A stretch of 53,154 nt of DNA from the NCBI GenBank assembly GCA_947460575.1, contig CANHIJ010000010.1, forward strand, positions 1 through 53,154, read 5' to 3'. This document shows, in pieces, positions 3,360 through 21,754 of the stretch. The notes under the pieces were generated by a model. The model worked only from the letters and a program-made list of their open reading frames with translations, was not told the DNA's origin and searched no databases. Origin of the DNA: Verrucomicrobiales bacterium. Lineage in GTDB: Bacteria; Verrucomicrobiota; Verrucomicrobiia; Verrucomicrobiales; V1-33. A program made the translations under genes and the position numbers. Within the stretch, counting starts at the first letter, position 1. Each line of letters opens with the position of its first letter.

Positions 3360-3812
3360 ATGCCCCAATCCCTTTCCCGCGTCCTGATCCACCTGGTCTT
3401 CAGTACGAGAAACCGTGAACCGGTGATCACGCCGGAAATCCGCACGGAATTGCATCCCTACCTCGCGGGCACGCTCGACAATATCGACTGCCCTTCGCTG
3501 CGCGTTGGTGGCGTCGCCGATCATGTGCATCTTTTCTTCGGCATTTCGCGAACGCGCACCATCGCCGAGGTCGTCGAGACGGTGAAAACCAGTTCGTCGA
3601 AATGGTTGAAAACCAAAGGCCCGGCATTCGCCGGTTTCCATTGGCAATCCGGTTACGGAGCGTTCTCCGTCAGCCAGTCGGATGCCGACACCGTCGTCGA
3701 CTATGTGGCCAATCAGGAAAGCCATCACCAGAAAATAACATTTCAGGATGAATATCGCAAATTGTTGGAAAAATACCGTGTTGCATTCGATGAAAAATAT
3801 GTGTGGGACTGA
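3360..3812 (+). CDS. REP-associated / IS200-like HUH transposase
   Basis: The 150-residue protein belongs to the Y1 HUH transposase superfamily (IS200/TnpA-REP type), which nicks single-stranded DNA through a tyrosine. The metal-binding HUH motif is visible as HVH in VADHVHLFF at about residues 58-66. The C-terminal catalytic helix carries Tyr in [12 protein letters not shown]. The opening [47 protein letters not shown] and the ending DEKYVWD are hallmarks of the short family common in environmental Gram-negatives. The length is complete for the family. It is flanked on both sides by REP palindromes, its likely substrates, inside the hsdM-hsdS junction. The start at 3360 gives the canonical N-terminus. 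It appears intact, so mobility is possible. Confidence 0.92.
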
Positions 3813-4445: not shown

Positions 4446-5638
4446 GGTGGGAAACGGTTCAAATTTCCGAGTTCTGCAAGACCGGCACAGGCGGCACGCC
4501 TTCGCGAAGTAACATGGAACGTTACTACGAAGGAGGAACGATCCCTTGGGTTAAGTCTGGAGAACTCAGAGAGAACATTATCACCGGCACAGGCGAGCAT
4601 GTCACGGAGGCCGCTTTGCGGGAAACGTCTATAAAACTCGTCCCCGCCGGTGCGCTATTGCTGGCATTGTATGGGGCGACAGTTGGCCGGTTAGGAATTC
4701 TCGGGGTAGAAGCGACGACAAATCAAGCCGTCTGCCACATTATTCCAGATCCGAAAAAGGCGAACGTTCGTTATCTGTTTCACGCATTGTCCAATCAGGT
4801 GTCAAATCTGGTGGCGCGTGGAGTCGGCGGGGCGCAGCCCAATATCAGCCAAGGAATTGTCAAAGAATTGGGACTCATGCTCCCGCCGCTCGCAGAGCAG
4901 AAGCGGATCGCGGCGATTCTGGATGCGGCGGACGCCTTGCGGGCCAAGCGCCGCGAGGCCCTCGCCCAACTCGACGCCCTCCTCCAATCCACCTTCCTCA
5001 CCCTTTTCGGCGATCCGGTGACCAACGAACACAAATGGCCGGTTCATTCGATCAACGACTTCGTTGCTGGGTTTGAGAGTGGTAAGAGTATCGTGAGCGA
5101 CGACGAGTCAGATACCACCTCGCCATACCGCGTGCTCAAAGTTAGCGCGGTTACGTCATTGGAGTTTCGGCCCGAGCAGAGCAAGGCAATGCCGCCGCTT
5201 TATGAGCCTCCCAATTCGCACATTGTTAGGGCTGGCGACCTGTTGTTCAGTCGTGCTAATACCATCGAACTGATTGGGGCGACCGCTTACGTTTCAACAA
5301 CTCCACCCAATCTTCTTTTGCCCGACAAGTTGTGGCGTTTTGTCTGGCACGCTCAACTGAAGGCCGAGCCTCATTTTGTGAGATACCTCTTTCAGCAACC
5401 CAAATTCCGAAGGGAGATTGGACAACGAGCCAGTGGAACAAGCGGCTCGATGAAAAACATTTCTCAGAACAAAGTTCTCACAATTAAAGTCGGACTCCCC
5501 CCCCTCCCCCTCCAACAAAAATTCGCCGCCATCGTCGAATCCATCGAGCGCCAGAAGGCCGCGCAGCGCGCCCACCTCGCCGAGCTGGACGCCCTCTTCG
5601 CGGCCCTGCAGCACCGCGCCTTTCGCGGGGAACTGTGA
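4442..5638 (+). CDS. hsdS: Type I restriction-modification specificity subunit
   Basis: The 398-residue protein is the sequence-recognition subunit that directs HsdM and HsdR. It has the expected two-fold layout: a first target-recognition domain (about 1-150, ending in LPPLAEQKRIAAILDAADAL), a central conserved helix, a second TRD (about 195-345) and a C-terminal helix (LPPLPLQQKFAAIVESIE). The repeated LPPLxxQxxxAAI signature marks the two conserved spacers that bring the half-sites together. The start at 4442 gives a typical N-terminus (MRWETVQISEFCK) and overlaps the stop of the preceding repeat-encoded tail by ATGA. The target sequence cannot be read from the protein. TRD1 has lower GC than hsdM, which fits frequent TRD exchange in this family. 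Confidence 0.93.
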   Translation: MRWETVQISEFCKTGTGGTPSRSNMERYYEGGTIPWVKSGELRENIITGTGEHVTEAALRETSIKLVPAGALLLALYGATVGRLGILGVEATTNQAVCHIIPDPKKANVRYLFHALSNQVSNLVARGVGGAQPNISQGIVKELGLMLPPLAEQKRIAAILDAADALRAKRREALAQLDALLQSTFLTLFGDPVTNEHKWPVHSINDFVAGFESGKSIVSDDESDTTSPYRVLKVSAVTSLEFRPEQSKAMPPLYEPPNSHIVRAGDLLFSRANTIELIGATAYVSTTPPNLLLPDKLWRFVWHAQLKAEPHFVRYLFQQPKFRREIGQRASGTSGSMKNISQNKVLTIKVGLPPLPLQQKFAAIVESIERQKAAQRAHLAELDALFAALQHRAFRGEL

Positions 5639-7542: not shown

Positions 7543-10500
7543 GTAACTTCGCCTTCCTGCCCGCAGCCTTCAAGGACCTCGCGGAAGCCTCCCGCAAGGC
7601 GGAGTCTCACATCATGGGCGATCCCCGCGCCGCCTGCTTCCACGCCCGCTTCGCCCTGGAGGCCGCGGTCCGCTGGCTCTACCGCTACGACACCAGCCTG
7701 CGGATGCCGTATGACACCACCCTGGGGGCCATGATCCATGACCCCGGTTTCCGCAACTTGCTGCCGGAGGCGGTCTTCCAGAAAGCCCGGATGATTCAGC
7801 AGGTGGGCAATCAGGCCGTCCACGAGCCGCGTCCCGTCCGTCAATACGATGCCCAGCAGGCGGTGAAGGAGCTGCATCACGTCTGCTATTGGCTCACCCG
7901 CACCTATGCGCCGGAGGCCTTCCTAGAGGGTGCCGCTTGGTCGGATGCCCGCGTGCCGCAGCCGATCACCAGCGCCGCCGCCGTGCCGCGCCAGGACCTG
8001 GAGGCCCTGGAAAAGCAGCTGGAGGTGCAGGCCAAAGCAGTGCTCAAGCAGCAGCAAGAAAAGGACGCCCTGGATGCCGAACTGCAGCTCCTCCGCGCCC
8101 AGTTGGCGGAAGCCAAGGCCGCCGCCGAGGCCCAGCCGGACACCCACGACTACTCGGAAGCGCAGACCCGCCACTACCTCATCGATCTCGAACTCAAGCG
8201 CGCCGGTTGGCTGCTGGATCAAAAGCGCGACAAGGAATTCGAGGTGACCGGCATGCCGACCCCCACCGGCAAGGGCTATGTGGACGATGTGCTCTGGGGC
8301 GATGACGGCAAGCCGCTCGGCCTGGTGGAATCGAAGAAGACCGCGGTGGACGCCCGGGTGGGCCAGCAGCAGGCCAAGCTCTACGCCGATTGCCTGGAGG
8401 CCAGGTATGGCCAGCGCCCGGTCATGTTCTATACTAACGGATACGAGATTTGGCTATGGGATGATACCGCCTATCCCCCACGCCGCGTGTCCGGATTTTA
8501 CAAAAAGGAGGAACTGGCCCGCCTCATCCTCCGCCGCAGCACCCGCAAGCCCTTCCAGGCGGTTCCGATCAATGGAGTGATCGTCGAGCGCTACTACGCG
8601 AAACGCGCCATCACCAGCATCTGCGAGCACTTCGCCGAGAAGCAGCGCAAGGCCCTGCTCGTCATGGCCACCGGCACCGGCAAGACCCGCGTCGCCATCG
8701 CGCTAGTGGATGTGCTCCAGCGGGCCAACTGGGCCAAGCGGGTGCTTTTCCTGGCCGATCGGATCTCGCTGGTCAATCAGGCAGGCAATGCCTTCAAGGC
8801 GCACCTGCCGGATTCCAGTCCGGTGAATCTGGTCACGGAAAAGAACACCGAGGGCCGGGTCTATGTCTGTACCTACCCCACCATGATGGGCCTCATCGAT
8901 GTGACCGACGGCGGCACGGCCCGCTTTGGGGTCGGGCACTTCGATCTGATCATCATCGACGAAGCGCACCGCTCGGTCTATCAGCGCTACCGCGAGATTT
9001 TCCGCTACTTCGATTGCCTGCTCGTCGGACTCACCGCCACCCCGCGTGAACAGGTGGACCGGAACACCTACGAACTTTTTGACCTGGAAGAAGGCGTGCC
9101 GACCGATGCCTACGAGCTGGAGCTGGCCGTTAGCGATGAATACCTCGTGCCGCCCCAAGTCCGGCAGGTGGACCTCAGATTCCCCCGCGATGGCATCCAC
9201 TACGATGACCTCAGCGATGCGGAGAAGGCGGAGTGGGAATCACTCGACTGGGGGGATGGCGACGGCAATGGCGGCGCACCAGGCACGGTGCAAGCCTCCG
9301 CCATCAACAACTGGCTGTTCAACACGGACACGGTGGACAAAGTCCTCCAGCACCTCATGGAGGAAGGACTTAAAGTCGAAGGCGGCGACCGCCTTGGCAA
9401 GACCATCCTCTTCGCCCGCAATCATAACCACGCCGTCTTCATCGAGGAGCGCTTCAATTTCCACTACCCGCAATACGGGGGGCACTTCGCCCGCGTCATC
9501 GACAATCAGGCGAAATACCCGCAGACCCTCATCGATGATTTCTCCCAGAGGGACAAGGCTCCCCACATTGCCATTTCCGTGGACATGCTGGACACCGGCA
9601 TCGACGTGCCCGAGGTCGTGAATCTGGTTTTCTTCAAGCCGGTCTATTCCAAGATCAAGTTCTGGCAGATGATCGGCAGGGGCACCCGGCTGTGCAAAAA
9701 CCTCTTCAGCCCGGGTCAGGACAAGGAGCACTTCCGCATCTTTGACTTCTGCTTCAACTTCGACTTCTTCCGCGAGAACCCCAACGGCATCGAGGGCGGT
9801 GGCAGCGAGGCCCTCGGCACCCGCCTCTTTAAGGGCCGCGTCCAGTTGCTCACTGCCGTCCAAAGAACTCCCGAACTGGAGCCCTCCGGCGCCCTCCGCA
9901 GCACCCTGAGCAGCACGCTGCACGGGGAAGTCAGCGGCATGAACCCCGACAACTTCCTGGTGCGGGCCCACCTCCAGCAGGTCGAAAGATTCCAGAATGC
10001 GGCCTCCTGGGACGCGCTCACGGATGCAGACATCCACGAGATCGGGAGCCACGTCGCCGGACTGCCCAGCCAGATCAAAACCGATGAACTCGAAGCCCGC
10101 TGCTTTGATCTCAGCGCCCTGCGGATGCAGATCGCCTTGGTCGAGCAAGACTCCGGCACTTTCGAGTCCACCCGGAGGAAGGTCATCGAGATCGCGGCCC
10201 ACCTCGAGGAAAAGGACGCCATTCCCGCCGTCAAACCACAACTCGAATACCTCCGCAGCCTCCAAACCCCCGAGTTCTGGGAAGGCATCGATCTCGCCGC
10301 GCTCGAAGATCTCCGCCTGCGCCTGCGTGGACTGGTCCAGTTCCTCGACAAGTCCAAACGCAAGATCGTCTACACCAACTTCGAAGATGAAATCATCAGC
10401 GTGCGCGAAGACGCCGTCGTCTACATACCGAGGATGACCGGAAATCAATATGCCAGGAAGGTCGAGGAATACCTCCGCAGCCATCAAGACGAAATCGCCA

Positions 10501-10925
10501 TCCAGCGCCTCCGCTACAACCAGCCACTCACCCCCACCGACCTCCAGTCCCTGGAGACAACCCTGCGCAGCATCGGCGAGGAGGAGGGCCCGCGCCTGCT
10601 CGACAGCATGCTGCACATCCTGGAAATGCCCACCCTGGCGCACCTCGTCCGCCGCATCGTCGGCATGGACCGCAACGCCGCCAAAGCCGCCTTCGCAGGC
10701 TTCCTCGACGACCGCACCCTCAACGCCCCCCAAATGCGCTTTGTCGAGATGGTGATCGACCAACTCACCGCCCGAGGCTTCATGGATCCCGCCGCGCTCT
10801 ATGAGGCCCCCTTCAACAGCATCCACGCCGGTGGCCCGGATGCACTCTTCGCCGGCCAGCCCAACATCATCGACGGTCTCTTCCAAACGCTCGAGAAAAC
10901 CCTGCCAAAAGTGCATACAGCATGA
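7539..10925 (+). CDS. hsdR: Type I restriction endonuclease subunit (DEAD/DEAH translocase)
   Basis: The 1128-residue protein is the ATP-dependent translocating nuclease subunit. Order: an N-terminal DUF4145-like helical domain (about 1-130, ARFALEAAVRWLYRYD), a Lys/Gln/Glu-rich coiled coil (about 150-205), an HSDR_N PD-(D/E)xK nuclease with YVDDVLW and the catalytic ESKK at residue 264, then SF2 motor domains with Walker A ATGTGKTRVAIA near residue 377 and Walker B DEAH at 474. RecA2 motifs include SVDMLDTGIDVPEV and QMIGRGTRLCKN, and an EcoEI-type C-terminal helical domain follows. All catalytic motifs are intact. I place the start at 7539, where ATG overlaps the upstream stop (ATGA). The frame is open far upstream, but that part is only a shadow of the AlbA_2 gene. 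Confidence 0.95.
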   Translation: MSNFAFLPAAFKDLAEASRKAESHIMGDPRAACFHARFALEAAVRWLYRYDTSLRMPYDTTLGAMIHDPGFRNLLPEAVFQKARMIQQVGNQAVHEPRPVRQYDAQQAVKELHHVCYWLTRTYAPEAFLEGAAWSDARVPQPITSAAAVPRQDLEALEKQLEVQAKAVLKQQQEKDALDAELQLLRAQLAEAKAAAEAQPDTHDYSEAQTRHYLIDLELKRAGWLLDQKRDKEFEVTGMPTPTGKGYVDDVLWGDDGKPLGLVESKKTAVDARVGQQQAKLYADCLEARYGQRPVMFYTNGYEIWLWDDTAYPPRRVSGFYKKEELARLILRRSTRKPFQAVPINGVIVERYYAKRAITSICEHFAEKQRKALLVMATGTGKTRVAIALVDVLQRANWAKRVLFLADRISLVNQAGNAFKAHLPDSSPVNLVTEKNTEGRVYVCTYPTMMGLIDVTDGGTARFGVGHFDLIIIDEAHRSVYQRYREIFRYFDCLLVGLTATPREQVDRNTYELFDLEEGVPTDAYELELAVSDEYLVPPQVRQVDLRFPRDGIHYDDLSDAEKAEWESLDWGDGDGNGGAPGTVQASAINNWLFNTDTVDKVLQHLMEEGLKVEGGDRLGKTILFARNHNHAVFIEERFNFHYPQYGGHFARVIDNQAKYPQTLIDDFSQRDKAPHIAISVDMLDTGIDVPEVVNLVFFKPVYSKIKFWQMIGRGTRLCKNLFSPGQDKEHFRIFDFCFNFDFFRENPNGIEGGGSEALGTRLFKGRVQLLTAVQRTPELEPSGALRSTLSSTLHGEVSGMNPDNFLVRAHLQQVERFQNAASWDALTDADIHEIGSHVAGLPSQIKTDELEARCFDLSALRMQIALVEQDSGTFESTRRKVIEIAAHLEEKDAIPAVKPQLEYLRSLQTPEFWEGIDLAALEDLRLRLRGLVQFLDKSKRKIVYTNFEDEIISVREDAVVYIPRMTGNQYARKVEEYLRSHQDEIAIQRLRYNQPLTPTDLQSLETTLRSIGEEEGPRLLDSMLHILEMPTLAHLVRRIVGMDRNAAKAAFAGFLDDRTLNAPQMRFVEMVIDQLTARGFMDPAALYEAPFNSIHAGGPDALFAGQPNIIDGLFQTLEKTLPKVHTA

Positions 10926-11455: not shown

Positions 11456-14400
11456 ATGTACCTTCTTTTCCCCCGCTTCTCCTCGTGCCGCGCCGCGGCC
11501 CTATGCGCCGCCGCTTTGATCTTGGGGGCGCTGCCGGGGTGGGCGGCGGATCCGGTGGTGAGCAACCTGAAGGCGGTGCAGCGGGAGGGGACGAAGTTGG
11601 TGGACATCACCTACGACGTCGCCGCGGACACGCCGACGGTGCAGGTGAGCTTGCAGATTTCTGGGGACGGCGGGGCCACCTTTGCGGTGCGCGCACTTTC
11701 GGTGGCCGGGGCGGTGGGGCCAGGGGTCAGCACCGGGATCGGAAAAGCGCTGACTTGGAACGCCGGGGCGGACTGGAATGGGCAATACAGCCCGCAGGTG
11801 CGCTTTAAGGTGGTGGCGGATGATGCGCCCGTGGGCTTTGCGACGATCCCCGCTGGCGCTTTTTCGATGGGGGACAACTTGGACGGCTTGGGAGACGCCC
11901 CTGTTCGCTCCGTGACGGTGAGCGCCTTTTATATGGGAAAAACGGAGGTGACGAAAGGGGAGTGGGACGAGGTGAGGACCTGGGCAGTGGGGCACGGCTA
12001 CACGGATCTGACCGCGGGTGCAGGCAAAGCGGCGAACCACCCGGTGCAGACGGTGAGCTGGTGGGACGCGATTAAGTGGTGCAACGCGCGGAGCGAAAAG
12101 GAGGGCTTGGCGCCGTGCTACGCGGTGGGCGGGAGCCCGATGCGAGTGGGAACCACTGCGCCTACGGTGGACTGGGCGACCAAGGGGTATCGGCTGCCGA
12201 CGGAGGCGGAGTGGGAAAAGGCGGCGCGGGGCGGTTTGAGCGGGAAGCGGTTTCCCTGGGGAGACACTATCAGCCACAGCCAGGCGAACTATTGGGGTAG
12301 TGATAGTTCAACCGAATACACCTATGATCTCAGCCGAGGGCGTGGACTTCACCCAAGTTATGATGTAGGAGATTATCCTTATACTTCGCCCGTGGGGAGT
12401 TTCGCGGCGAATGCCTACGGGCTGCAGGACGTGGCGGGTAATGTGTGGGAATGGTGTTGGGATTGGTATGGTAACTATACGTCGGGGGCTCAGTCCGACC
12501 CCAGGGGGGCGACTTCCGGTGGTTATCGTGTGTGTCGAGGTGGCACATGGGATATCAGTGCGCGCGGTTCCCGGGTTGCTATGCGTAATAACTTCACAAC
12601 GTACACGCAGGGCAGAAATAATGGTTTTAGAGTACTTAAAAGTTCAGATTCTTTGGCACTTGGTTTTGCCATCACCGGGGACTCTGCGGTCCGCACGCGG
12701 GGGTGGATTTTGAGCCTGGCACCGTCTGCCAGCCAGAATGGCAAAGTCAGCGGGGCAGGGGAGTTTGTCGCAGGGACCGATGCCACACTCACCGCGCTGA
12801 GCAATGTTGGTTATACGCTCAGCAGCTGGACCGGGGCTGCCGCAGGCTCCGCCAACCCGCTAGCGGTGACCATGGACTCGGACAAGATGGTGGGCGCGAC
12901 GTTTGCCCGCGACGCGAGGGACCCGGATGGCGATGGGCTGAGCAACTACGATGAACTCGTGACTCGCAGCACGGACCCCGCAAAGGCGGACACAGACGGC
13001 GACGGGTTGTCGGATGGCGCGGAGCTGGGGTTGGGGCGGTTTTCTGTTGTTTTGGGGAGGTGGACTTGGATGCAGGCGCGGGCGGATGCGGGAAGCCGCG
13101 GCGGGGCTTTGGCGACTTTTGTCAATGCGGAGGAGTGGGCCTTGGCGCTGCAGTCGATGGGCGAGAGCGCCCTGCAGAATGTGACGGGCTTGTGGATCGG
13201 GGCCACGGATAGCGCGGTGGAAGGGGCCTGGAAATGGGCGGGCGGGGAGGCGTTTGGATTTGCCAACTGGGCGAGCGGTCAGCCGGATAATCTCAACGAC
13301 CAGGATTTCGCCGCGGTGGCCGGGGACCTGGGAGGGAGCTTGGGGAAATGGTATGACTACCGGTCCACGGTCACGCTGGACGGCTATGTGTTGGAGCAGG
13401 GCTATGCGACCTCGCCGCTCAATCCCGACAGCGATGGCGATGGGCTCAACGATGGGCAAGAGCGCGCCGCAGCAACCCATCCGGGGGTGGCGGACTCGGA
13501 TCAGGACGGACTGAGCGATGGATTGGAAGTGCTGCAGAGCCTGACGAATCCGCTGCTGGCGGACAGCGACGGCGATGGGATCGGTGATTTGTTGGAAGAC
13601 TCGGATGGGGACGGCTTGAGCAACGAGGAGGAGCGCGGGCTGGGCACGCATTTGGGGCAAGGCGACAGCGACGGGGACGGAATCTCGGATCGGGCGGAAC
13701 TGGGGCGCGGGCGCTTTGAGTTTGTCAGCGCGACCCTGACATGGCCGGCGGCGAGCGCGGCGGCGGCGGCGCGGGGCGGGTATTTGGCGACGTTCCGGGA
13801 TGCGGCGGAGTTGGCCGAGGCCATGGTGCAGGTCGGCCCGAGTCTTCCGGGGGACCTGAATGGGTTTTGGATCGGAGCCACCGACCGGGCGGTGGAGGGC
13901 AGCTGGCGCTGGGTGACCGGGGAGGCTTTTGGCTTTGCCAAGTGGGCGACCGGCGAGCCCAATGATTTGAATAACTCCGACTACGCGGCAGTGGCGGGCG
14001 ACGCCAGCGGCGAGGAGGGCAAGTGGTATGACTTCCGCGACGTGACCACCCGGAGCGCCTACTTGTTAGAAAAGAGCTTTGTCACCAATCCGCTGCTGGC
14101 CGACACCGACGGAGACGACCTGCCGGACGGGGCGGAGCTAACGCGCGGAACGGCACCAGTGGCGGCGGACAGCGACGGCGACGGCTATGTTGACGGCGTG
14201 GAGGTCGCGCTGGGGGGAGATCCGCTGAATGCGGCGCAGGGACCGGCCTGGCGGGCCGAATGCCGCGCCAGCGCGACCAAGTCCGGGACAGTGGAAATCC
14301 GCTTCCCCAGCGCGGTGGGGCGGACCTATGCCGTGGAGGTATCTAGCGACCTGAAGAATTGGCAGGTGCTGCAAAGCGGCCTGGCAGGCAACGGTCGGGT

Positions 14401-14458
14401 GTTGGCGCGGGAGGTTGTGATCGAAGGCCAGGCGGTGCGCTATTTCCGGGTGCGGTGA
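11456..14458 (+). CDS. secreted SUMF1-fold / C-type-lectin / thrombospondin-3 multidomain protein
   Basis: The 1000-residue exported protein starts with a signal peptide (residues 1-31, cleavage near GWAA). A beta-sandwich follows (32-123, VVSNLKAVQREGTKLVDIT) of the type that precedes SUMF1 domains in PVC bacteria. The SUMF1/FGE-fold domain spans about 128-395 (GYRLPTEAEWEKAARGG, DVAGNVWEWCWDW, NNGFRVL). An InlB/Flg_new-like repeat covers about 400-485, and calcium-binding DxDxDG thrombospondin-3 repeats separate two C-type-lectin-like domains (about 530-650 and 755-870). The lectin domains carry WIGATD, a QPDN motif in the first and an EPND motif in the second, each followed by GKWYD. The SUMF1 domain lacks the paired cysteines of true formylglycine-generating enzyme (RGGTWDISARGSRVAMRN), so it is probably a binding or structural module. 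The C-terminus (SSDLKNWQVLQ to YFRVR) resembles that of the LamG protein further right. Confidence 0.88.
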   Translation: MYLLFPRFSSCRAAALCAAALILGALPGWAADPVVSNLKAVQREGTKLVDITYDVAADTPTVQVSLQISGDGGATFAVRALSVAGAVGPGVSTGIGKALTWNAGADWNGQYSPQVRFKVVADDAPVGFATIPAGAFSMGDNLDGLGDAPVRSVTVSAFYMGKTEVTKGEWDEVRTWAVGHGYTDLTAGAGKAANHPVQTVSWWDAIKWCNARSEKEGLAPCYAVGGSPMRVGTTAPTVDWATKGYRLPTEAEWEKAARGGLSGKRFPWGDTISHSQANYWGSDSSTEYTYDLSRGRGLHPSYDVGDYPYTSPVGSFAANAYGLQDVAGNVWEWCWDWYGNYTSGAQSDPRGATSGGYRVCRGGTWDISARGSRVAMRNNFTTYTQGRNNGFRVLKSSDSLALGFAITGDSAVRTRGWILSLAPSASQNGKVSGAGEFVAGTDATLTALSNVGYTLSSWTGAAAGSANPLAVTMDSDKMVGATFARDARDPDGDGLSNYDELVTRSTDPAKADTDGDGLSDGAELGLGRFSVVLGRWTWMQARADAGSRGGALATFVNAEEWALALQSMGESALQNVTGLWIGATDSAVEGAWKWAGGEAFGFANWASGQPDNLNDQDFAAVAGDLGGSLGKWYDYRSTVTLDGYVLEQGYATSPLNPDSDGDGLNDGQERAAATHPGVADSDQDGLSDGLEVLQSLTNPLLADSDGDGIGDLLEDSDGDGLSNEEERGLGTHLGQGDSDGDGISDRAELGRGRFEFVSATLTWPAASAAAAARGGYLATFRDAAELAEAMVQVGPSLPGDLNGFWIGATDRAVEGSWRWVTGEAFGFAKWATGEPNDLNNSDYAAVAGDASGEEGKWYDFRDVTTRSAYLLEKSFVTNPLLADTDGDDLPDGAELTRGTAPVAADSDGDGYVDGVEVALGGDPLNAAQGPAWRAECRASATKSGTVEIRFPSAVGRTYAVEVSSDLKNWQVLQSGLAGNGRVLAREVVIEGQAVRYFRVR

Positions 14459-14468
14459 AGGGGGCGCG

Positions 14469-14909
14469 GTGAACTTGACCTGGCGGCGGTGGAGAGGGCA
14501 GCCAGCGCTTGACTGTGGGCGGGTTGGTCTTCCGAAGTATCGGGTGCCCAATCCCAGCCAGCCGCTCCACAACGCTCGACACGAATCTTTCGCCCTGGCC
14601 GTTGTGGCAGGAAAGCCCGGCGCAGAGGCGTACCGGGACTCTGGCTACGCCAACGACAAGACTGGGGCCAATGCCAAACGGCTGACCAACAATGACCAGA
14701 TCAGGGCTCGGGTCGCTTGGCTGAAGGCGCAGACCGCGACGTCGACGGTGCTGAGCCAGATCCACAAACGGGAGCTGCTGGCCGCGATCGCCCGAGACCC
14801 CCAGGCGCGGGCATCCGACCGAATCGCCGCCATCCGCGAGGACAACCATATGGCGGGCGACGGGGGCGACCAGGCGCTGACGATTTTGATCCACCATGTG
14901 TGGAACTGA
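14469..14909 (+). CDS. phage terminase small subunit
   Basis: The 146-residue product resembles small terminase subunits (TerS), which recognise phage packaging sites and recruit the large subunit. The helix-turn-helix core is ARHESFALAVVAGKPGAEAY, then RDSGYAND and AKRLTNNDQIRARVAWLKAQ, the usual 'xxRxExFxxxxxxGxxxxxAYxxAGY...xRLxxNxxIxxRVxxL' pattern. A C-terminal KRELLAAIARDPQARASDR oligomerisation-type segment follows. The first codon is GTG and the first ~25 residues are unlike the family, so the true start may be the in-frame GTG at 14544. No large terminase gene accompanies it. It lies 11 bp after the surface-protein gene and opposite in strand to the primase/helicase/integrase genes. 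A standalone TerS fits a satellite that redirects a helper phage, or a decayed prophage. Confidence 0.72.
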   Translation: MNLTWRRWRGQPALDCGRVGLPKYRVPNPSQPLHNARHESFALAVVAGKPGAEAYRDSGYANDKTGANAKRLTNNDQIRARVAWLKAQTATSTVLSQIHKRELLAAIARDPQARASDRIAAIREDNHMAGDGGDQALTILIHHVWN

Positions 14910-15523
14910 CGCGCCGGGGGTTGGCCTGCCTGCTCATGTGCTGCTCATGTGCAGGGCCCGTGCTGCTGCGCGTGCTGGTGGTGGCGTCGTCGGTGGAGTT
15001 GGCGGTGGGCTCCTGGCAGCCCTCGTTTGGTGACAGACCAAGCGGCTCTGGGGTCAGCATCCCAGGCCTGCGCCCTCGTGGCGTGGGCCAACTGCTCCAA
15101 CGTGGCGGCGGCGGCGGCTCCAGCGCACCCTCTGGCTCGAGTGCTGCCTTCCCCTGGCTCGTGCTCTAGGACGCTGCCTGGGCGCTGCCTGGGCCTGCTG
15201 TGCTATGGGCTGACGCGGCGGGGGGTGCTGGTGGGCGTGCTGCTTGGCATCGTCACAGTGAGCCCGCCAAGGGGTCTCCTGTGCGTCGGGGTTTTGGCTG
15301 CGGTGGTCGGGCTGGCTCGCTGTGGGGCTAATGTGGGCGGCTGGCCTTGAGTCGGCCAGGGCGGTGCGGCTTCTCCAGCCTGGGGCCGGTGGGCCAGGGG
15401 GGCCAAATTTCAAAAGCTGCCTCTATGCGCGCTAAATTGGCCGATTCGGTGGTGGGGGCATGAGGTCCAGCGATTCAACCCACCCTCCCCCCCCTGGCGG
15501 TGTCGCGCTGTCCGCACCCCTGG
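14910..15523. other. gene-free stretch between terS and the helicase gene
   Basis: About 600 bp with no supported gene. Overlapping frames on both strands are open (14949-15350 plus, 15054-15413 and 14701-15060 minus) but their products are Cys/Trp/Arg- or Pro/His/Gln-rich low complexity without recognisable motifs. Runs such as GTGCTGCTGCGCGTGCTGGT suggest slippage-prone sequence. If the island is a satellite this could hold a packaging site or an attachment site, but I see no defined structure before the long hairpin at 15524. Confidence 0.45.
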
Positions 15524-15592
15524 GGTGAAAACGGTGAAAACAGTGAAAACCCCTTCTTTCGGGAGGTTCTCACCGTTTTCACTGTTCTCACC
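15524..15592. terminator. 28-bp inverted repeat built from GGTGAAAAC units, after the helicase gene
   Basis: The left arm 15524-15551 consists of GGTGAAAAC, GGTGAAAAC and AGTGAAAAC plus C. The right arm 15565-15592 is its reverse complement at 24 of 28 positions, with a 13-nt loop. It starts two bases after the stop codon of the minus-strand DUF3987 gene, so in that transcript it would fold into a long stem at the 3' end. There is no T-run beyond the stem, so termination would not be of the simple intrinsic kind. Protection of the 3' end, bidirectional termination or protein binding are alternatives. Confidence 0.6.
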
Positions 15593-15594
15593 GT

Positions 15595-17148
15595 CTAGGA
15601 AGCCCTGCGGATAAGCCGGGCGCTGATTCCCGGTCTTCCTCCTTTGGGGCCGGTCGGGCTCGCCGCGACGACCAATCGGTTTGGGAATTCCTGGGCCAAG
15701 TCGCGCACCTCCCGTTCGGTAAAGCGGTGCCTCTGGTCCAGCTTCGAGAGCGAAATGGCCTCGGCATTTCTGTCGCTGAAGATCGTGGCCAGCCTCTCCA
15801 TGCGTTTGGCTTTTTGCTGGCTTCGTGAAGGTTCCAGTAGGGCGAGGGTCTCCCCAAAGAACCAGCGGGTGACGGTCTTGGCAGCCAAGGCGGTTTCGGT
15901 GGATAGTTCATGCTCCCCCGCGTCGCTGGGGTGCTTTAGCGCATGGAAGACAAGGGCCAGCCTCCAGGTATTTTCCGCTAGGCGGGCCGCGCTGGAACAG
16001 CACCACTTCCATTCCCCTCCCTCCTCCCGCTTGTCGGCCGCTTCATGAGCCAGGGCATCAATGACTTCTTGGGCACCATCGGAGGGGTGTACCATGAACC
16101 GCGGGGCCGGGTCGCTCCGGCGGTCCAGGAGGGCGCGAACCGTGCTGGCCCAGTGCTCCGCGGTCTCAACCGGAACCTCGTGTGAGGACGGCCGCAGGGG
16201 GCGGGCGTGGGAATCGAAGGCCATGCAGCGGGCCAGAAACCCGCTCTCCATTAAGCGGTGGTCGGCGGCCATGCGGTCCCATATGTCAGGCTGAACAGCC
16301 AGGCATAGGGCAAGGCAGGGCGATGGGCAGTTCATCGGATTTTTTCCCTTCCTGCTGTGGGTTACCGGGTCCCCAGAGTATGCCTGAAGAAAAATGGCCT
16401 CATCACTGCCCTTTCCGTCTTGGCTATAGCGCCCCAATAGGTTGGCCACGATGTCCCGGGCTTCCGAGGAGATCATAGCGCTGGCAAATCCTGGCGCATG
16501 ACACAAGGCCTCCACGACAGCTTCCGCCGTGGCGTTGCCTATGTTTAGAAGCGGCGCTCGGGCCAGTGCTCGTTCGGCCTCGTCCTTCCGCTTGGTGGCG
16601 TCCGCAATAGACAGTCGCGCCTCTGTTGAATCGTTGGCGCTTTTGCTGTCCTTGCGTTGCTTTTTGGCCCGCTCAAGATCGGTGCTTGCGGTTTCGAGAT
16701 CGGCCAGGAGGTTGGGGCGCTCTTCCTTGATCCACTCCTCAATCATGCGGGCCTCCTCCTCAAGCCACGGGGCCGCCATGACTTTGTGAGACTGCCCCTT
16801 GCCGGTGCCGCTCTCCGCGAATGCCAGAAGATACAGATTCCCCCTAGTCGTCTGTCCCGGGCCGCTCTGGACTTGGTAGGCGCTGCCCATGGATGCGGAC
16901 GTTACCCCGATCCCCCAGGCGGCGCAGAGCGCTTCCGGGGCGTTGGTCTGACGGGCGGCGTGAATGACCATGGAGCGCAGGGGCTCCGGTAGAGCGTGGG
17001 TGGGGAACGGGTCCCGTGGAGCGGGTACTGGCTCCTGTGCCTCGGCGTCGTCCACCGCGGCGACTGGGGCTTCCTGCGCGGCCTCCGGCTCATCGTCGGA
17101 AAAGTCGTCCAGAATCTCAGCTTCAGGGATAGGGCCGGAATAATTCAT
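15595..17148 (-). CDS. DUF3987 helicase-like replication protein
   Basis: The 517-residue protein belongs to the DUF3987 family, found on plasmids, phages and integrative elements next to primases. It has a RecA/helicase-like ATPase core. An acidic N-terminus (1-50) precedes the domain. The P-loop-like AESGTGKGQS lies at residues 111-120. A charged coiled-coil-like insert spans about 140-215 (LERAKKQRKDSKSAND). The core continues with EAVVEALCHAPGFASAMISS, AYSGDPVTHSRKGK and LCLAVQPDIW, and a winged-helix-like end follows (QRHRFTEREVRDLAQEF). Its ATG overlaps the stop of the primase-like gene by four bases (ATGA), so the two are translationally coupled. It is probably the replicative helicase or initiator of the island. 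A long hairpin follows its stop. Confidence 0.82.
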   Translation of the reverse strand: MNYSGPIPEAEILDDFSDDEPEAAQEAPVAAVDDAEAQEPVPAPRDPFPTHALPEPLRSMVIHAARQTNAPEALCAAWGIGVTSASMGSAYQVQSGPGQTTRGNLYLLAFAESGTGKGQSHKVMAAPWLEEEARMIEEWIKEERPNLLADLETASTDLERAKKQRKDSKSANDSTEARLSIADATKRKDEAERALARAPLLNIGNATAEAVVEALCHAPGFASAMISSEARDIVANLLGRYSQDGKGSDEAIFLQAYSGDPVTHSRKGKNPMNCPSPCLALCLAVQPDIWDRMAADHRLMESGFLARCMAFDSHARPLRPSSHEVPVETAEHWASTVRALLDRRSDPAPRFMVHPSDGAQEVIDALAHEAADKREEGGEWKWCCSSAARLAENTWRLALVFHALKHPSDAGEHELSTETALAAKTVTRWFFGETLALLEPSRSQQKAKRMERLATIFSDRNAEAISLSKLDQRHRFTEREVRDLAQEFPNRLVVAASPTGPKGGRPGISARLIRRAS

Positions 17149-18206
17149 TTGTCACCTCCTAACTTGGAAGGAGTTGGATAAGTCAGGATTGACCGGGCCG
17201 CGGCGACCCCATCGGAACCGGCGGCGAGTATGACCCGGAGGTCTTGGAATCCCTTTGGCATCTTGGCGCGGTCCACGGTGCATCCCACGGCTTGGAGTTC
17301 ATCCCGCCAGGCGCGGGCAGCTTTCATCCCGGCTTCGTTGGGGTCTGGCATTACGCGGACATGATGGCCGGCAATGGCCTTCAACAGGGCTGTTTCAGCG
17401 GCGAAAGTGGACCCGCAGAAATGGGCTGCCAGGAAGTGCCAGCGTCGGGCCTTTCCTTCGCACAACCACTGGCAGGCGACCGCTTCAAATAGGGAGATGG
17501 TTCCCTCGGTGATAAACACCATTTCTTCGGGATCAAGCCTCCGGGAGTGATTGAGGCTGAAGAACCCTTTTCCGGAGGAACCCTTGGCATTGTCGCTCTT
17601 TTCTCCGTGATGGAATGGTGAGCCGTCGAGATTCCTGTATTGTCTGTGTCCCCGGCCATCGGTGCGGCCATCGGTCAGGAGAACGCATCCGGGCCGGGAG
17701 TCATCGGCCATGATTCTCGCATTTTGGCATCCGATATCGACGGCAGCGAGGGGCAGATTCCGTAATCTGGCAAACGCTCCTTTCTCCGGTCCCGTCAGAT
17801 GGCGAGGAATAGGCCATTTAGCTTGCACGGTGGCCTTTGCCACTAGGTCGGCGGCACCATACCCCCTCCGTGCTGCCGGTGCCTTAGCAAGGCTTGCAGG
17901 GGCCTTGATGGCGCTCCCTGTAGTCTGGCGGCGGTCATCGTTCTTCAATAGATAGCCCTCCGGCGCGCTGGCCTTGGCGGCATCCTCCAGCTTGTGCCGC
18001 AGGTCGCTATCGGACCACGGGGGAAAGGCCTTGGTCTCGTTCCAGCGGGCCAGCAAAGCAAAGGCTTCCGGCGACGGCAAACTGAAGCCTTTTGTCAGGG
18101 TGCGGGCCACGTTGAAAATGGCCGTGTGCCCGCTGGCCCCCTGGGTGCTGGGGGGCATCGCGCTGATGTATTTCCAAGCGCGGTCTTGAAGCGAAGTAAT
18201 TATCAT
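17145..18206 (-). CDS. Toprim-domain primase-like protein
   Basis: The 353-residue protein has an N-terminal PriCT-like helical region (1-85, with FALLARWNETKAFPPWSDSD) and a C-terminal Toprim fold. Toprim residues visible are the glutamate in VFITEG (residue 234) and the acidic motif in MPDPNEAGM (residues 288-290, DPN in place of DxD). There is no CHC2 zinc finger, so template binding would differ from DnaG. Such proteins occur in phage and satellite replication modules with DUF3987 partners, as here (four-base overlap with the next gene). I start at the ATG at 18206 (MIITSLQDRAWKY). An upstream in-frame ATG at 18344 would add 46 residues of atypical composition over a strong hairpin, which I read as leader. 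Confidence 0.75.
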   Translation of the reverse strand: MIITSLQDRAWKYISAMPPSTQGASGHTAIFNVARTLTKGFSLPSPEAFALLARWNETKAFPPWSDSDLRHKLEDAAKASAPEGYLLKNDDRRQTTGSAIKAPASLAKAPAARRGYGAADLVAKATVQAKWPIPRHLTGPEKGAFARLRNLPLAAVDIGCQNARIMADDSRPGCVLLTDGRTDGRGHRQYRNLDGSPFHHGEKSDNAKGSSGKGFFSLNHSRRLDPEEMVFITEGTISLFEAVACQWLCEGKARRWHFLAAHFCGSTFAAETALLKAIAGHHVRVMPDPNEAGMKAARAWRDELQAVGCTVDRAKMPKGFQDLRVILAAGSDGVAAARSILTYPTPSKLGGDK

Positions 18207-18250
18207 GGTGCTGAACTGGGGTTCAAGCACGCTTGACCAAGCCGGGCTCC

Positions 18251-18300
18251 GGGAGGCAAAGTGACCACGCTCTTTCGGAGTACGTGGGGCTCTGCCTCCC
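18251..18300 (-). promoter_or_regulatory. two-part hairpin in the primase leader
   Basis: GGGAGGCA (18251-18258) pairs with TGCCTCCC (18293-18300), and CCACG (18265-18269) pairs with CGTGG (18283-18287). This gives a stem with a small internal loop and a 13-nt apical loop. It lies 45 bp upstream of the primase start, within about 220 bp separating it from the regulator gene. It could be an attenuator or translational control element. In P4-type satellites a short structured RNA just upstream of the primase gene has a regulatory role, but no sequence link is claimed. Confidence 0.45.
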
Positions 18301-18430
18301 AGCTCCCTGGTCGCCCCTGAGAAGGTGGCCGGGGAGTTGCCCATTTGGGTGGCGGCTCAGATGTTGATGAGGTCGTTGTTGTCCGCACCGCTGGCCTGCT
18401 GGGTGGTGGTGGCGGTGTCGGCGGAGCAGA

Positions 18431-18661
18431 TCACTTGGCCACCTCCTGCTTCCGTTTGTTCCCACCGCGGGCGATGGGGCCTTGGGGTTGGGACCGGATG
18501 AACCCATCGAGGGACTCGCGGTCGATGAGCCGGATCGTCCCGACGGCGTGGGACTTGATGGACTTCTTCTTGAGCAACAGGAACAGCGTGGACCGGCGGA
18601 TGCCGCTGTAGGCGATGGCGTCCTCCAGGCGGAGGAACTGCGGGGTGATCTGAGCGTTCAT
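18431..18661 (-). CDS. AlpA-like / excisionase-family helix-turn-helix regulator
   Basis: The 76-residue protein has a winged helix-turn-helix of the AlpA/MerR-excisionase type: FLRLEDAIAYSGIRRSTLFL (helix-turn-helix), then KKKSIKSHAVGTIRLIDRES (wing) and LDGFI, and a basic C-terminus. AlpA-like proteins regulate integrase/excision and replication genes in phage satellites and islands. I use the ATG at 18661 (MNAQITPQFLRLEDA) because the domain starts directly after it. Upstream TTG codons would add unlike sequence. It is preceded by a 208-bp spacer with iteron-like repeats and followed by the primase/helicase pair, so it probably binds nearby and controls that unit. Confidence 0.78.
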   Translation of the reverse strand: MNAQITPQFLRLEDAIAYSGIRRSTLFLLLKKKSIKSHAVGTIRLIDRESLDGFIRSQPQGPIARGGNKRKQEVAK

Positions 18662-18773
18662 AGGGAGCGAGCCAGGGGGTGTGGCTTGGCTCTCAGCAGA
18701 TGCTGAAGGCAACAACAAGCGACCCCTTGGCCCGCTCAGTCTGGTGCGGATTCGGCGTGGGTCAAAGAGATCC

Positions 18774-18877
18774 CTATCAGATAGCCTCTTCTTATTCTAT
18801 TGTGGAGATAGACCCTATTCTCCAGCCGCAGCAAAATAGACCCTATTCTCCTGCGCATCAAAATCGGGGCTATTTCT
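18774..18877. promoter_or_regulatory. iteron-like repeats upstream of the AlpA-like gene
   Basis: Two exact copies of ATAGACCCTATTCTCC lie at 18808-18823 and 18836-18851 (28-bp period). A degenerate third is at 18863-18877 (ATCGGGGCTATTTCT), again about 27 bp on. The first sits in a near-palindrome, GGAGATAGACCCTATTCTCC (18804-18823). A further palindrome, CTATC-A-GATAG, is at 18774-18784. The block is AT-richer than its surroundings and lies between the hypothetical gene and the regulator-primase-helicase genes. Operator sites for the AlpA-like protein or replication-origin iterons are both reasonable. Confidence 0.7.
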
Positions 18878-19277
18878 TGGCGCGCCTGCTCTGGGGGAGT
18901 CCGCTCAGGCCAGCCAGTTTGATGAGCTTAGCCTCCATGTCCTCGCCAATGTCGAAGGCGCGAGGGTGTCGCCTCCTCACCGCCAACCACAGCTCCTTCT
19001 TGGTTGGGAGTCGGTCGTACTCCTCGCAGAAGTTGTATGCCACAGCGAGCATCCAAGGAACCCTCATGGTTTGCGGATCTACCGGAAAAAACGCCGCATC
19101 CAACACGCGTGATGCCCAGGCGAGGGCTTGGTCCTTTGCCTGTTCCTTGACCCTCCCTGTGCCGTACTGGGCTCTTGTGAGTTGCTCCAGCAGGGGCTTG
19201 ACGAAGACGTGGTAAATCTCGTCTGCAGACGACAGGTCCGGGAAGGTGCTGGCGCGCATTAGCGCGTTCCCGGCCAT
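18870..19277 (-). CDS. hypothetical protein of the island
   Basis: This 135-residue, mostly helical protein has no family I recognise. Notable stretches are VFVKPLLEQLTRAQYGTGR, WMLAVAYNFCEEYDRLPTKK and a basic C-terminus ending SRRAKK. It looks like a small cytosolic or DNA-associated factor. It lies between the integrase/small ORF and the iteron-like repeats; its stop codon overlaps the third, degenerate repeat. Balanced composition and position in a compact same-strand gene row support it as real. The overlapping frame at 18928-19293 is less protein-like. Confidence 0.65.
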   Translation of the reverse strand: MAGNALMRASTFPDLSSADEIYHVFVKPLLEQLTRAQYGTGRVKEQAKDQALAWASRVLDAAFFPVDPQTMRVPWMLAVAYNFCEEYDRLPTKKELWLAVRRRHPRAFDIGEDMEAKLIKLAGLSGLPQSRRAKK

Positions 19278-19316
19278 ATTGAATGGCTGGCACCTATCCT
19301 GGCCTCGTACCGCCGC

Positions 19317-19397
19317 TCAACTTCCGAAGGCGGCCTTGACCTCTGAGGAGTAGCACCACTCCCCGTCAACTTTCCCAAATGGAGGAATCTTTTTCAT
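19317..19397 (-). CDS. 26-residue ORF coupled to the integrase stop
   Basis: The ATG at 19397 overlaps the integrase stop codon (TTATGAAAAA, ATGA overlap). It opens a short frame, MKKIPPFGKVDGEWCYSSEV then KAAFGS and stop at 19317. The sequence is not low complexity and the four-base overlap is the usual coupling signal, so a small translated product is plausible. No family is recognised, and chance overlap is possible given its length. It lies 39 bp before the next gene of the island. Confidence 0.4.
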   Translation of the reverse strand: MKKIPPFGKVDGEWCYSSEVKAAFGS

Positions 19398-20563
19398 AAT
19401 GTTGGAAAGGCTGAGGCTGCACGCTCCATCGCTTCGCGGCCGGTGTGGGTGTACCCCTGGCTCACGTCGGGACTGTCGTGCCCCACGAACGCCATCACGA
19501 CGCTGGCGGGGATTCCGGCGTCCTTGAGCAGGCTGGTCGCGGTGTGGCGGAGGCAGTGGAACGATAGGGCGTTCCGGCGATTGGCCATCCCCGGTTCGAC
19601 CTCGGTGGCGTCGCGCAGGCCAGCGGCTTCGAGCAGCTCGGCGAACTCGCGGGATAGCGTTGAGGATTGCACACGTTGGGCCGCAGCCCAGGCCGCCGGG
19701 TGAATCGGCGCCTTCGGGTCGTCGGACGCAGGCAGGGTAGCGATGTGAGCCTGGAGCGCGGGAGGGAGCGGAATGACCTGACGGCGGCCCGTCTTGCGGG
19801 TCGTCAGTCGGATCTCTCCGCGGGCTAGGTCAAGGTTCTGCCAGGTAAGCGTGGCGATGTCGGAGAGCCTCTGTCCGGTGAACAGACCGAACCGGATCAT
19901 GCTCGCCCACTCAGGGCTGGCCAACTCCAGGATGGCCCGCAGTTCCGGCAGGGTGAATGGCCGCCGGGCCGCCTCCGTGCGGTCCCGGACGCTCTCCACG
20001 CCCAGGCAGGGGTTCTCTGTGATGAAACTGTCCTTCTGCGCGGCGGCAAAGAACATCCGCACCATGGCCAGCGTGTTGTTCACGGTCTTAGGGCCGGCCT
20101 TGGCGGCCACGTGGTCTCGGAACTCGACCATGGTGCGCTTCCCCACCTCGGTGATGTCTTTGTCGGCCCGGTCGCCCAGCCATTCAAAGAACTGGCGGGC
20201 CATGGAGCGGTAGGTAGCCAGCGTCCTGGGAGCGATCGTCTTCGTCTTGCCGTCGATGAACCCAGTGATGAACGCCCGGGGGGTGGTGACTGCCAGGGAC
20301 GCGCCAGTGAGGTCCTTGCAAATGTCGCCTAGGATGCGGCGGACCTGGGTGGCGGTCTTGGAGGCGGTGGCGGGCATCCTCGAACGCCCTGGCCAGGTTG
20401 GCAGCCAACTTCTTGTCGGTGGTCTTGGTCGAGCGCTTGAGCCGCCGCCCGCTGACGTCAGTCCAGGCGGCGATGTAGTACTTGCGGTCGGGTCTGCGGT
20501 GGATGCTGGCCGTACCGAGAGCAATAATGGGAACAGTCGCCGTAGTCCAGAGGAATCCGCCAC
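19394..20563 (-). CDS. tyrosine recombinase / integrase, apparent N-terminal frameshift
   Basis: A phage-type integrase with a SAM-like core-binding domain (FITGFIDGKTKTIAPRTLAT, ARQFFEWLG) and a catalytic domain showing all active-site elements: Arg in GLFTGQRLSDIATL, Lys in RKTGRRQV, HCLRH, the second His in VGHDS and nucleophile Tyr in SQGYTH. The first ~65 residues of this frame (Ser/Pro/Arg-rich) look wrong. The expected N-terminus (IHRRPDRKYYIAAWTDVSG, RLKRSTKTTDKKLAANLARA) lies in another frame from about 20380 to 20585, and a single-base shift near 20370-20378 would join the two. The gene may thus be frameshifted, or the sequence may carry an error. The corrected start could be a TTG at 20585 overlapping the stop of the oxidoreductase gene, which marks the probable insertion border. 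It is the first gene of the minus-strand island row. Confidence 0.85.
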   Translation of the reverse strand: MADSSGLRRLFPLLLSVRPASTADPTASTTSPPGLTSAGGGSSARPRPPTRSWLPTWPGRSRMPATASKTATQVRRILGDICKDLTGASLAVTTPRAFITGFIDGKTKTIAPRTLATYRSMARQFFEWLGDRADKDITEVGKRTMVEFRDHVAAKAGPKTVNNTLAMVRMFFAAAQKDSFITENPCLGVESVRDRTEAARRPFTLPELRAILELASPEWASMIRFGLFTGQRLSDIATLTWQNLDLARGEIRLTTRKTGRRQVIPLPPALQAHIATLPASDDPKAPIHPAAWAAAQRVQSSTLSREFAELLEAAGLRDATEVEPGMANRRNALSFHCLRHTATSLLKDAGIPASVVMAFVGHDSPDVSQGYTHTGREAMERAASAFPTL

Positions 20564-20581
20564 GGCGTATCCTACGGGGAA

Positions 20582-21754
20582 TCAATGACTTAGCGAACGG
20601 GCTGAACGAATGCGGCATTCGATTTCGCGCCAGGCGGTGAGGGCGAGGGAATCGGGGAGGGCCACGTCGGCCATGTCGATGATTTCGCCGGCTTTGATGG
20701 GGCGGCAGACGCGGGCATTTTGAGCCAGGCCGATCGGGAGGTGGCCGAGGTGTTCGGCGGCGCGGACGCATTCGCCGCGGAGGGTGAAGGAGCCAAGGCC
20801 GCGGGGGATGCGTTCGCCGGGTTTGAGGTCGCGTTTGGCGATGGCGGCGACGCTGATGCGGGGGACGGGGCCGTTGTTGAGGAGGGGGCGTTTTTCGAAG
20901 GCGACGCGGCGGATGGTTTTGGCGATTTCCAAAAAGCAGAGGTGGTGGGGGCGCTGGATGACGTAGAGGGGGCCGGGGCCCATTTTGAAATACTGGAGGG
21001 CGGGGGCGTGAATGGCGGCATGGGTGGCGGCGATGAAGATGCCGCCGGGGCACTCTGGGGTGATGGCGTAGTCGGCGATGGGGCCGCCGGTGACGAGGGC
21101 GTGTTCGGCGAGGACGTCGGCGGCTTGGCGGAGGGTATCGGTGCGAGGGCCGGCGAGGCCGCCTTCGGCGATGTCGGCGTGGAGGCCGTTGGCGACGAGG
21201 GCTTGTTCGATGTGGACCTTGGTGCCGTCGGTGAAGGCGGTGACTTGGTCGAGGGAAATGCCCTGCTGGGAGGCCCAGTGCTCCATTTCCTCGGGGCTGG
21301 GGTGGGTGTTGAGGTAGCGCTTGGTATTGCCGTAGATGAGGGGGGTGAAGCCCATGGCCTGGACCTCTTCGGCGAGGGCGGCGAGGCTGCCGGACTGGTC
21401 GCCCTCGGCTTCGGTAAGGAGGCCGCGGCCGCTGAACCAGGATCCGGTGGTGACGTGGAATTCGGAGTTCATGGTCACGACGGGGAGACCGGCGCGGAGG
21501 GCGGCGTCGATGACTTCGGTGGCGTGGAGGACGTCGCCGCTGCATTCTACGATGAGGTCGCAGTGTTCGGCGAGTTCTTCGGGGGTGCGGACGAGGAGTT
21601 CTGGGGGGACGCCGGTGACGGAGATGGGGGGGCGGCGGGTGAGGACGGCGGAGATGCGGTAGTCGCTGCGGCCCTGAGTGGCAGCGATGAAGCCGCGGGC
21701 GATGAAGCCGGTGCCGGAGACGCCGACGCGGAAGGGAAAGGGCAGATCGTTCAT
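20582..21754 (-). CDS. NAD(P)-dependent oxidoreductase with SAF domain (COG4091-like)
   Basis: The 390-residue protein has an N-terminal Rossmann fold with VGVSGTGFIARGFI near residue 10. A homoserine-dehydrogenase-like central region follows (SGDVLHATEVIDAALRAGLP, FTDGTKVHIEQALVANGL). A C-terminal SAF-like beta-clip domain covers about 315-380 (LKPGERIPRGLG, PIKAGEIIDMADV). This domain order is that of the 'predicted homoserine dehydrogenase' family COG4091, whose members act in sugar-acid and polyol or cell-surface sugar metabolism. The substrate here is unknown. The very end (SARSLSH) overlaps the integrase region, so the original C-terminus may have been altered by insertion. The next gene on the same strand encodes a TauE/SafE transporter, with a 74-bp gap. 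Confidence 0.82.
   Translation of the reverse strand: MNDLPFPFRVGVSGTGFIARGFIAATQGRSDYRISAVLTRRPPISVTGVPPELLVRTPEELAEHCDLIVECSGDVLHATEVIDAALRAGLPVVTMNSEFHVTTGSWFSGRGLLTEAEGDQSGSLAALAEEVQAMGFTPLIYGNTKRYLNTHPSPEEMEHWASQQGISLDQVTAFTDGTKVHIEQALVANGLHADIAEGGLAGPRTDTLRQAADVLAEHALVTGGPIADYAITPECPGGIFIAATHAAIHAPALQYFKMGPGPLYVIQRPHHLCFLEIAKTIRRVAFEKRPLLNNGPVPRISVAAIAKRDLKPGERIPRGLGSFTLRGECVRAAEHLGHLPIGLAQNARVCRPIKAGEIIDMADVALPDSLALTAWREIECRIRSARSLSH

Follow-up and report, generated by a model that had tools for sequence, protein, structure and literature searches.

Phage satellites have been described mostly from Proteobacteria and Firmicutes, and in the open-access literature that we searched none was described in Verrucomicrobiota. 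The phage-inducible chromosomal minimalist islands (PICMIs) of Vibrionaceae are modelled as an integrase, an alpA gene and a primase of the DUF3987 (PF13148) or DUF5906 type, with a mean size of ~6.7 kb; a gene overlapping the integrase gene at an ATGA (iolg), present in 21 of 35 subfamilies, is usual without being strictly defining and serves in excision as a required gene, the fis integration site is named a hallmark, and complete PICMIs have been found only in Vibrionaceae (PMC10803314). Here we analyse a stretch of 53,154 nucleotides from a Verrucomicrobiales bacterium (contig C10 of its genome; the window, taken at its full length), in which a block at about 14469-20585 holds genes for an integrase, an AlpA-like regulator, Toprim-like and DUF3987 replication proteins and a small terminase subunit (terS). 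We read it, with a probability of about one half, as a degenerate PICMI-like compact satellite island whose distal end has been rearranged. The reading builds on the gene content, an attachment (att) core at the integrase end, a target gene that is restored when two contigs are joined, kinship with compact islands and the absence of structural genes.

The genome (G000) is a metagenome-assembled genome (MAG) of 4.21 Mb in 216 contigs, 89.6% complete; below, C50 is a second contig of it, G001, G002 and G004 are congeners, and L-numbers denote loci in relatives. At the integrase end, the 28-bp core CCTGGCGCGAAATCGAATGCCGCATTCG terminates in the palindrome CGAATGC-C-GCATTCG and sits within the 3' end of an oxidoreductase gene, whose C-terminus is swapped for element sequence (RSARSLSH*) and whose homology to congeners ends at 20600-20607. 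An exact copy of the core was found at one further place in the genome, G000:C50:1763-1790, followed by RAAAANSAPITPRGNF*, a native-type tail of the interrupted oxidoreductase; joined in a script, the C10 and C50 parts give a protein of 398 aa, compared with 400 aa in each of G002 and G004. The exact core on C50, the native tail and the restored gene length thus form an integration signature at the oxidoreductase 3' end, with the second half-site on C50, and we take the integrase end to be a true attachment site. The first-pass annotation had reported no att sites and had placed the boundaries at 14469 and 20585: the core and its partner overturn the former, and of the latter the integrase end stands, whereas the left end turns out to be a break against a neighbouring gene. 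Two weaker links would also tie the C50 end to the element. The 12-bp word CGCCGTGGCGGA, the best shared by the two inner 250-bp ends, was equalled in 21 of 2000 shuffles and 10 of 2000 random genomic pairs; lying at comparable depth in both ends (~1% by chance), it is suggestive only as a putative arm site. A 34-bp direct repeat, found nowhere else in the window (blastn among the fetched own-genome sequence), likewise connects the C50 end with the element. A complete empty locus was not found among the congeners: G002 and G004 have an uninterrupted oxidoreductase gene with other neighbours, and in G001 a contig end cuts it.

Read from right to left on the minus strand, the block runs integrase, int-overlapping gene, AlpA-like helix-turn-helix (HTH) gene, Toprim-like gene and DUF3987 gene, with terS on the plus strand (Table 1). 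The named genes of the first-pass annotation are all borne out by profile matches, and it was right about the opposite strand of terS and the lack of structural genes, as no capsid, portal or terL gene was detected in the block. The catalytic part of the integrase keeps the motifs R, K, HxLR, H and Y, and the stop codon TGA of its gene overlaps the ATG of the next one (ATGA at 19397-19394). The int-overlapping gene has no Pfam, PHROG, NCBIfam or PADLOC match, and its protein is not significantly similar to its L044 and L054 counterparts; relatives hold homologues of the AlpA-like gene at the same position. The Toprim-like protein is directly similar to proteins of L054 and L138, and its positional homologues carry CHC2 (3e-9) and Toprim_2 (3e-9) in L044 and likewise CHC2 and Toprim in L205. 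For the DUF3987 protein, neither the predicted AlphaFold structure (pLDDT 67) searched against PDB folds nor phmmer gave a significant match. Directly past its stop codon, at 15510-15600, lies a 20-bp inverted repeat (95%), ACGGTGAAAACAGTGAAAAC, with 24-nt spacing, possibly a terminator or an origin-type repeat. The terS product matches phrog_51 and the Pam5 small terminase structure (PDB 21di, E=4e-7) and aligns cleanly with eight Verrucomicrobiota TerS homologues, with Pfam Terminase_2 at 0.03, under the cut-off; by these profile, structure and alignment matches we call it a genuine TerS.

Table 1. Coordinates of the element, its ends and the neighbouring genes in the window
Feature	Position	Strand	Evidence or remark
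hsdM, type I restriction	1295-2788	+	
hsdS, type I restriction	4442-5638	+	
AlbA_2 protein	5650-7542	+	
hsdR, type I restriction	7542-10925	+	
FGE-sulfatase/lectin/TSP3 protein, outside the element assignment	11456-14458	+	Pfam E=2.1e-50
Left break without att site, where the host-type FGE gene meets element DNA	14459-14469		homology to G001:C367 ends at 14469
TerS homologue, distal end	14469-14909	+	phrog_51 3.9e-7; strand opposite to the rest
34-bp motif, element orientation	15336-15369	-	88% direct repeat of C50:1504-1537; blastn E ~2e-7
DUF3987 replication helicase/primase	15595-17148	-	P-loop SGTGKG; PF13148 E=1.4e-52; phrog_2373 DNA helicase 3.6e-41
Toprim primase-like protein	17145-18344	-	Toprim_2 E=0.005, weak by itself
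AlpA/excisionase-like HTH_17 regulator	18431-18718	-	HTH_17 0.0017 (under Pfam gathering score); excise TIGR01764 4e-5
int-overlapping gene, position like PICMI iolg	18870-19397	-	translation; family unknown
Tyrosine integrase	19394-20587	-	PF00589 E=1.3e-18 (gene span 19394-20563); phrog_1 4.9e-49
Candidate arm-type site CGCCGTGGCGGA, 12 bp	20546-20557	-	same-orientation copy at a depth of ~100 bp in the C50 end
Host DRL-type oxidoreductase (PF21135), target gene	20582-21754	-	Pfam E=6.5e-31
att core CCTGGCGCGAAATCGAATGCCGCATTCG, integrase-proximal half-site, 28 bp	20607-20634	-	identical copy at C50:1763-1790

Integrase matches at E<=1e-20 are present in 117 of 289 genomes of the order. Exact repeats were found in six of the 20 nearest neighbourhoods, and all six elements are compact, at 6.06 (L197), 7.14, 7.81, 9.16, 5.53 and 8.18 kb; in the others, the available DNA contained no repeat. 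The window integrase pairs in the tree with that of L197 (51% identity; SH-like approximate likelihood ratio test 92), an element bounded by a 33-bp tRNA repeat. Among the DUF3987 elements with exact tRNA repeats, L044 (8.65 kb) carries int, an int-overlapping gene, alpA, CHC2/Toprim and DUF3987, and L054 (7.96 kb) has the gene order of the window; DUF3987 relatives also include named Verrucomicrobia and Akkermansiaceae MAGs, which supports the phylum assumed in the first-pass annotation. Compact tRNA-flanked islands with precise ends, the search for which had been proposed as a check, occur in the same taxonomic order. Eight of them (L044, L054, L197, L198, L200, L205, L207 and L209) are alike in integrase family, alpA and the presence of replication genes, in exact tRNA repeats and in sizes of 5.5-9.2 kb; unlike the window, they have intact ends, lack terS and vary in their replication genes (Toprim plus DUF3987, DUF5906 as in L207, AAA_25 and BT4734-like genes). 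The int gene overlaps its neighbour at ATGA in the window, L200, L201, L207 and L215, and at GTGA in L044, which by analogy argues for a PICMI-like design. Taken together, the comparisons support placing the integrase lineage and its gene order in a widespread set of compact (5.5-9.2 kb) tRNA-flanked islands devoid of structural genes. Outside these islands little was found: viral contigs held no DUF3987 or TerS relatives, short Toprim matches only and no att core; phage and plasmid records gave DUF3987 at 23-25% identity only and, for TerS, the phiLM21 TerS alone; and a broad alignment (A1) offered no conserved stretch usable for scanning.

The distal end is where the window departs from these relatives. 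Position 14469 was rejected as a left att site, the palindromic core of the integrase end having no other copy in the window; when that end was compared with the entire left part of the window, the best direct repeat (15 bp, one mismatch) was no better than chance. The adjoining FGE gene belongs to a multicopy family (34 matches in the own genome). Its homologue in G001, a congener free of both the element and DUF3987, is 95% identical in protein over the last 400 aa, and the homology ends exactly at the start of terS; C50, in turn, starts within an FGE gene (C50:2-1195). With host-type FGE sequence at 14469, no core there and C50 starting in FGE, we conclude that the element has been broken and that FGE-bearing DNA separates terS from the last ~0.3 kb with the second att half. 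The break may be due to an insertion, a rearrangement between FGE repeats or misassembly, or the intervening DNA may be true cargo belonging to a larger island, and the size depends on the answer: 6.4 kb if compact (6425 bp in sum) versus at least 22.4 kb if contiguous (C10:1-20634 plus C50:1-1790). On C10 as on C50, the FGE genes point with their 3' ends towards what is left of the element, and their downstream 80-335 bp are also repeated. The G001 intergenic sequence behind FGE, sought in the own genome, gave a 67% match only.

The main rival, which we consider rather unlikely, is that the locus is a larger, defence-bearing integrative island of at least 22.4 kb in the oxidoreductase gene, with int, alpA, primase and DUF3987 as its mobility and replication end and type I restriction as defence cargo, and not a satellite. 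The two half-sites do bracket C10:1-20634 and C50:1-1790, and if the contigs are simply ordered, the hsdMSR genes would fall between them; only under this rival would they be cargo. They match PADLOC profiles (1.1e-193, 1.4e-92 and 1.4e-175), the AlbA_2 protein of the cluster matches SLFN_AlbA_2 (6.5e-10), the left 11 kb has a GC content of 60.7% compared with 66.3% in the host right flank, and the congeners have no close hsdR, with a 70% homologue in another family. Parallels exist as well: L135 has a type I hsdR beside alpA and a DUF3987 fusion gene, and in L057 (also L159 and L160; G085:C1, ~464865-517210), a 52.3-kb tRNA-Val element that carries BrxL, PglZ and PglX, the int-alpA-primase-DUF3987 core occupies one end. 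The compact reading is nevertheless preferred because L197 (6.06 kb) and five further elements of the clade span 5.5-9.2 kb and L044 and L054 share the gene order; moreover, the FGE gene that separates terS from the restriction genes has its 95%-identical C-terminal half in the element-free G001, which favours a compact element, and both breaks are flanked by FGE copies. An early idea of a large element, drawn from L057 when its integrase was the closest at hand (52 kb), was weakened by the closer integrase of L197.

Several observations on the genes of these longer stretches stand on their own. The BREX genes of L057 are accompanied by a gene for a PHP/AAA-type protein and by Dynamin- and HSP70-like genes. 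In the window, the AlbA_2 gene within the restriction cluster encodes a Schlafen/AlbA_2 plus HATPase_c_4 protein, and L135 has a similar AlbA-like gene ahead of hsdR. Between hsdM and hsdS, at 3360-3812, lies an IS200-like Y1 transposase gene (RAYT-type), with short repeated sequences on either side (of GQRPGA type when translated).

A distinctly less probable explanation is that C10 is chimeric at 14459-14469, a host FGE contig having been joined to the distal element, and that a compact island has its true left end in the C50 segment; a MAG in 216 contigs, a multicopy FGE family and a contig starting inside an FGE gene are what such an artefact would leave, but no evident long repeat links the FGE-terS junction to another contig. 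Very improbable is a full prophage that has lost its late genes: TerS homologues of the phylum do occur in prophages with TerL-type neighbours (L144, L146, L147 and L149), but the relatives of the integrase and replication module are complete att-bounded elements free of structural genes, and no terL was found in the genome. An intact satellite of the phage-inducible chromosomal island (PICI) type bounded at 14469 and 20585, as first proposed, has int, alpA, primase and terS and lacks structural genes, yet is scarcely credible given a frameshifted integrase, an interrupted int-overlapping gene, a terS that reads from the other strand and has no linkage to the unit in relatives, the lack of an att repeat at 14469, and a second half-site on C50 that already contradicts it.

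The degenerate compact island that we favour has its own difficulties. Its two ends are on separate contigs, and more than ~6.4 kb may have lain between them; nor does a simple inversion explain the FGE genes whose 3' ends point at the element in each contig. DUF3987 elements also come in larger sizes (L048, 16.8 kb; L057, 52.3 kb), a whole-genome search of the 89.6%-complete MAG detected no terL (phrog_2), and no phrog_51 terS was found near DUF3987 in the 18 other DUF3987 genomes or in the 20 integrase-clade neighbourhoods. A helper and packaging are presumed by analogy.

The window copy looks decayed. The N-terminal and catalytic parts of its integrase are in different frames, which meet at ~20345-20360; a tblastn search with the L057 integrase splits into the two, in line with an earlier suspicion of a frameshift. 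The int-overlapping gene has one in-frame TGA after 26 codons, after which the same frame is open to 18870. As both lesions fall in the excision module, the copy is decayed or carries assembly errors, and is probably immobile in its own genome. From PICMI genetics and gene content we infer how an intact copy may have worked. A helper phage or another signal would turn on AlpA; the integrase, AlpA and the int-overlapping protein would excise the DNA between the half-sites as a circle; this would be replicated by the Toprim primase together with the DUF3987 helicase; and helper phage proteins would package it, with the element TerS, as a further step, possibly steering the helper large terminase onto element DNA. 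The original size would be ~6.4 kb plus whatever was lost at the break.

The place of terS in such elements is a separate matter. The first-pass annotation saw int, alpA, primase, DUF3987 and terS as one unit, to be abandoned if terS and the replication genes lay in unrelated contexts in relatives; with terS absent from the DUF3987 and integrase-clade loci, and DUF3987 from all 11 terS loci fetched, this is largely the case, and the unit is not conserved. Three other Verrucomicrobiota loci pair terS with different replication genes. L148 (G433:C33, 1032-6184) is a 5.1-kb island between 53-bp tRNA repeats (50 matches) with integrase, HTH, DnaB-like helicase and terS genes, which makes it a clearer case of a candidate terS satellite than the window; L154 (G284:C36, 5316-13364; 8.0 kb), with a perfect 53-bp tRNA repeat, has integrase, excisionase, DnaB-like helicase and terS. 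A terL was recognised in neither, nor in the window, which shares with both the set of int, HTH/excisionase, replication helicase and terS; unlike the window, both have a DnaB-like helicase in place of DUF3987, terS on the strand of the replication gene and distant integrases. L154 also encodes a 470-aa protein lacking any family match. The contig-cut L145 (G417:C186, 6000-12300), where excisionase and D5-like primase genes adjoin terS and a gene for a PBECR3 nuclease-domain protein, is another terS-bearing satellite candidate. As terS is unlinked to DUF3987 and the integrase clade and yet present in these three loci, it looks like an exchangeable gene acquired by several satellite-like lineages. 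The idea of a satellite accordingly survives in part: compact islands with kin integrases and terS-bearing compact islands both exist in the phylum, without the conserved unit.

Islands of this compact design are common in related bacteria and appear to be undescribed there. Tentatively, the Verrucomicrobiales may hold a large class, so far undescribed, of minimalist phage satellites that sit in tRNA genes, measure 5-9 kb and consist of int, an int-overlapping gene, alpA and a primase that can be exchanged; several may independently have captured a phage TerS to redirect helper packaging, the window being a decayed TerS-bearing member. The exact ends of the eight compact islands and the two terS islands make them candidates that can be tested. 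Should packaging be borne out, minimalist satellites with AlpA and DUF3987 or DUF5906 would extend well beyond Vibrio, and terS would have been captured more than once. For the window copy, the distant att half on a separate contig turns a seemingly short island into an open question of extent.

Among known systems, the CP4-57/YfjI-type and P4-like elements share AlpA and YfjI/DUF3987 relatives with the window (plasmid and E. coli matches are named YfjI) but at 24-25% identity only, and the six island proteins have none of the P4 alpha primase, psu, sid or delta domains, which leaves the window outside the P4-like group. The PICIs (Staphylococcus aureus pathogenicity islands and Gram-negative PICIs) are alike in having int, an AlpA-like regulator, a primase-type gene and terS and in lacking terL, portal and capsid genes, so that by gene content (int, regulator, replication module, terS, no structural genes) the window resembles them; its flanking att ends are two half-sites on different contigs. 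It differs in having DUF3987 instead of pri-rep, a divergent, weak terS on the opposite strand that is no conserved member of its family (0/18 DUF3987 genomes, 0/20 integrase-clade loci), and no capsid-remodelling genes. With PICMIs, the window shares the order of int, int-overlapping gene (ATGA), alpA, an optional gene and primase and the lack of capsid-remodelling genes; its size would be similarly compact at 6.4 kb if the compact reading is correct, but would be at least 22.4 kb if the contigs are contiguous. Its co-located int, alpA and DUF3987 are the PICMI gene set (AlpA under the Pfam gathering score), and DUF3987, put forward at first as a novel satellite replication partner, is already part of the published model as PF13148 (PMC10803314). 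Unlike PICMIs, the window lies outside Vibrionaceae, carries terS and is a damaged copy, and it is integrated at an oxidoreductase 3' end, its relatives in tRNA genes, not at fis. Sharing the PICMI gene features but neither the fis site nor the host family, the window and its relatives are best regarded as PICMI-like in their probable working, without being filed as PICMIs.

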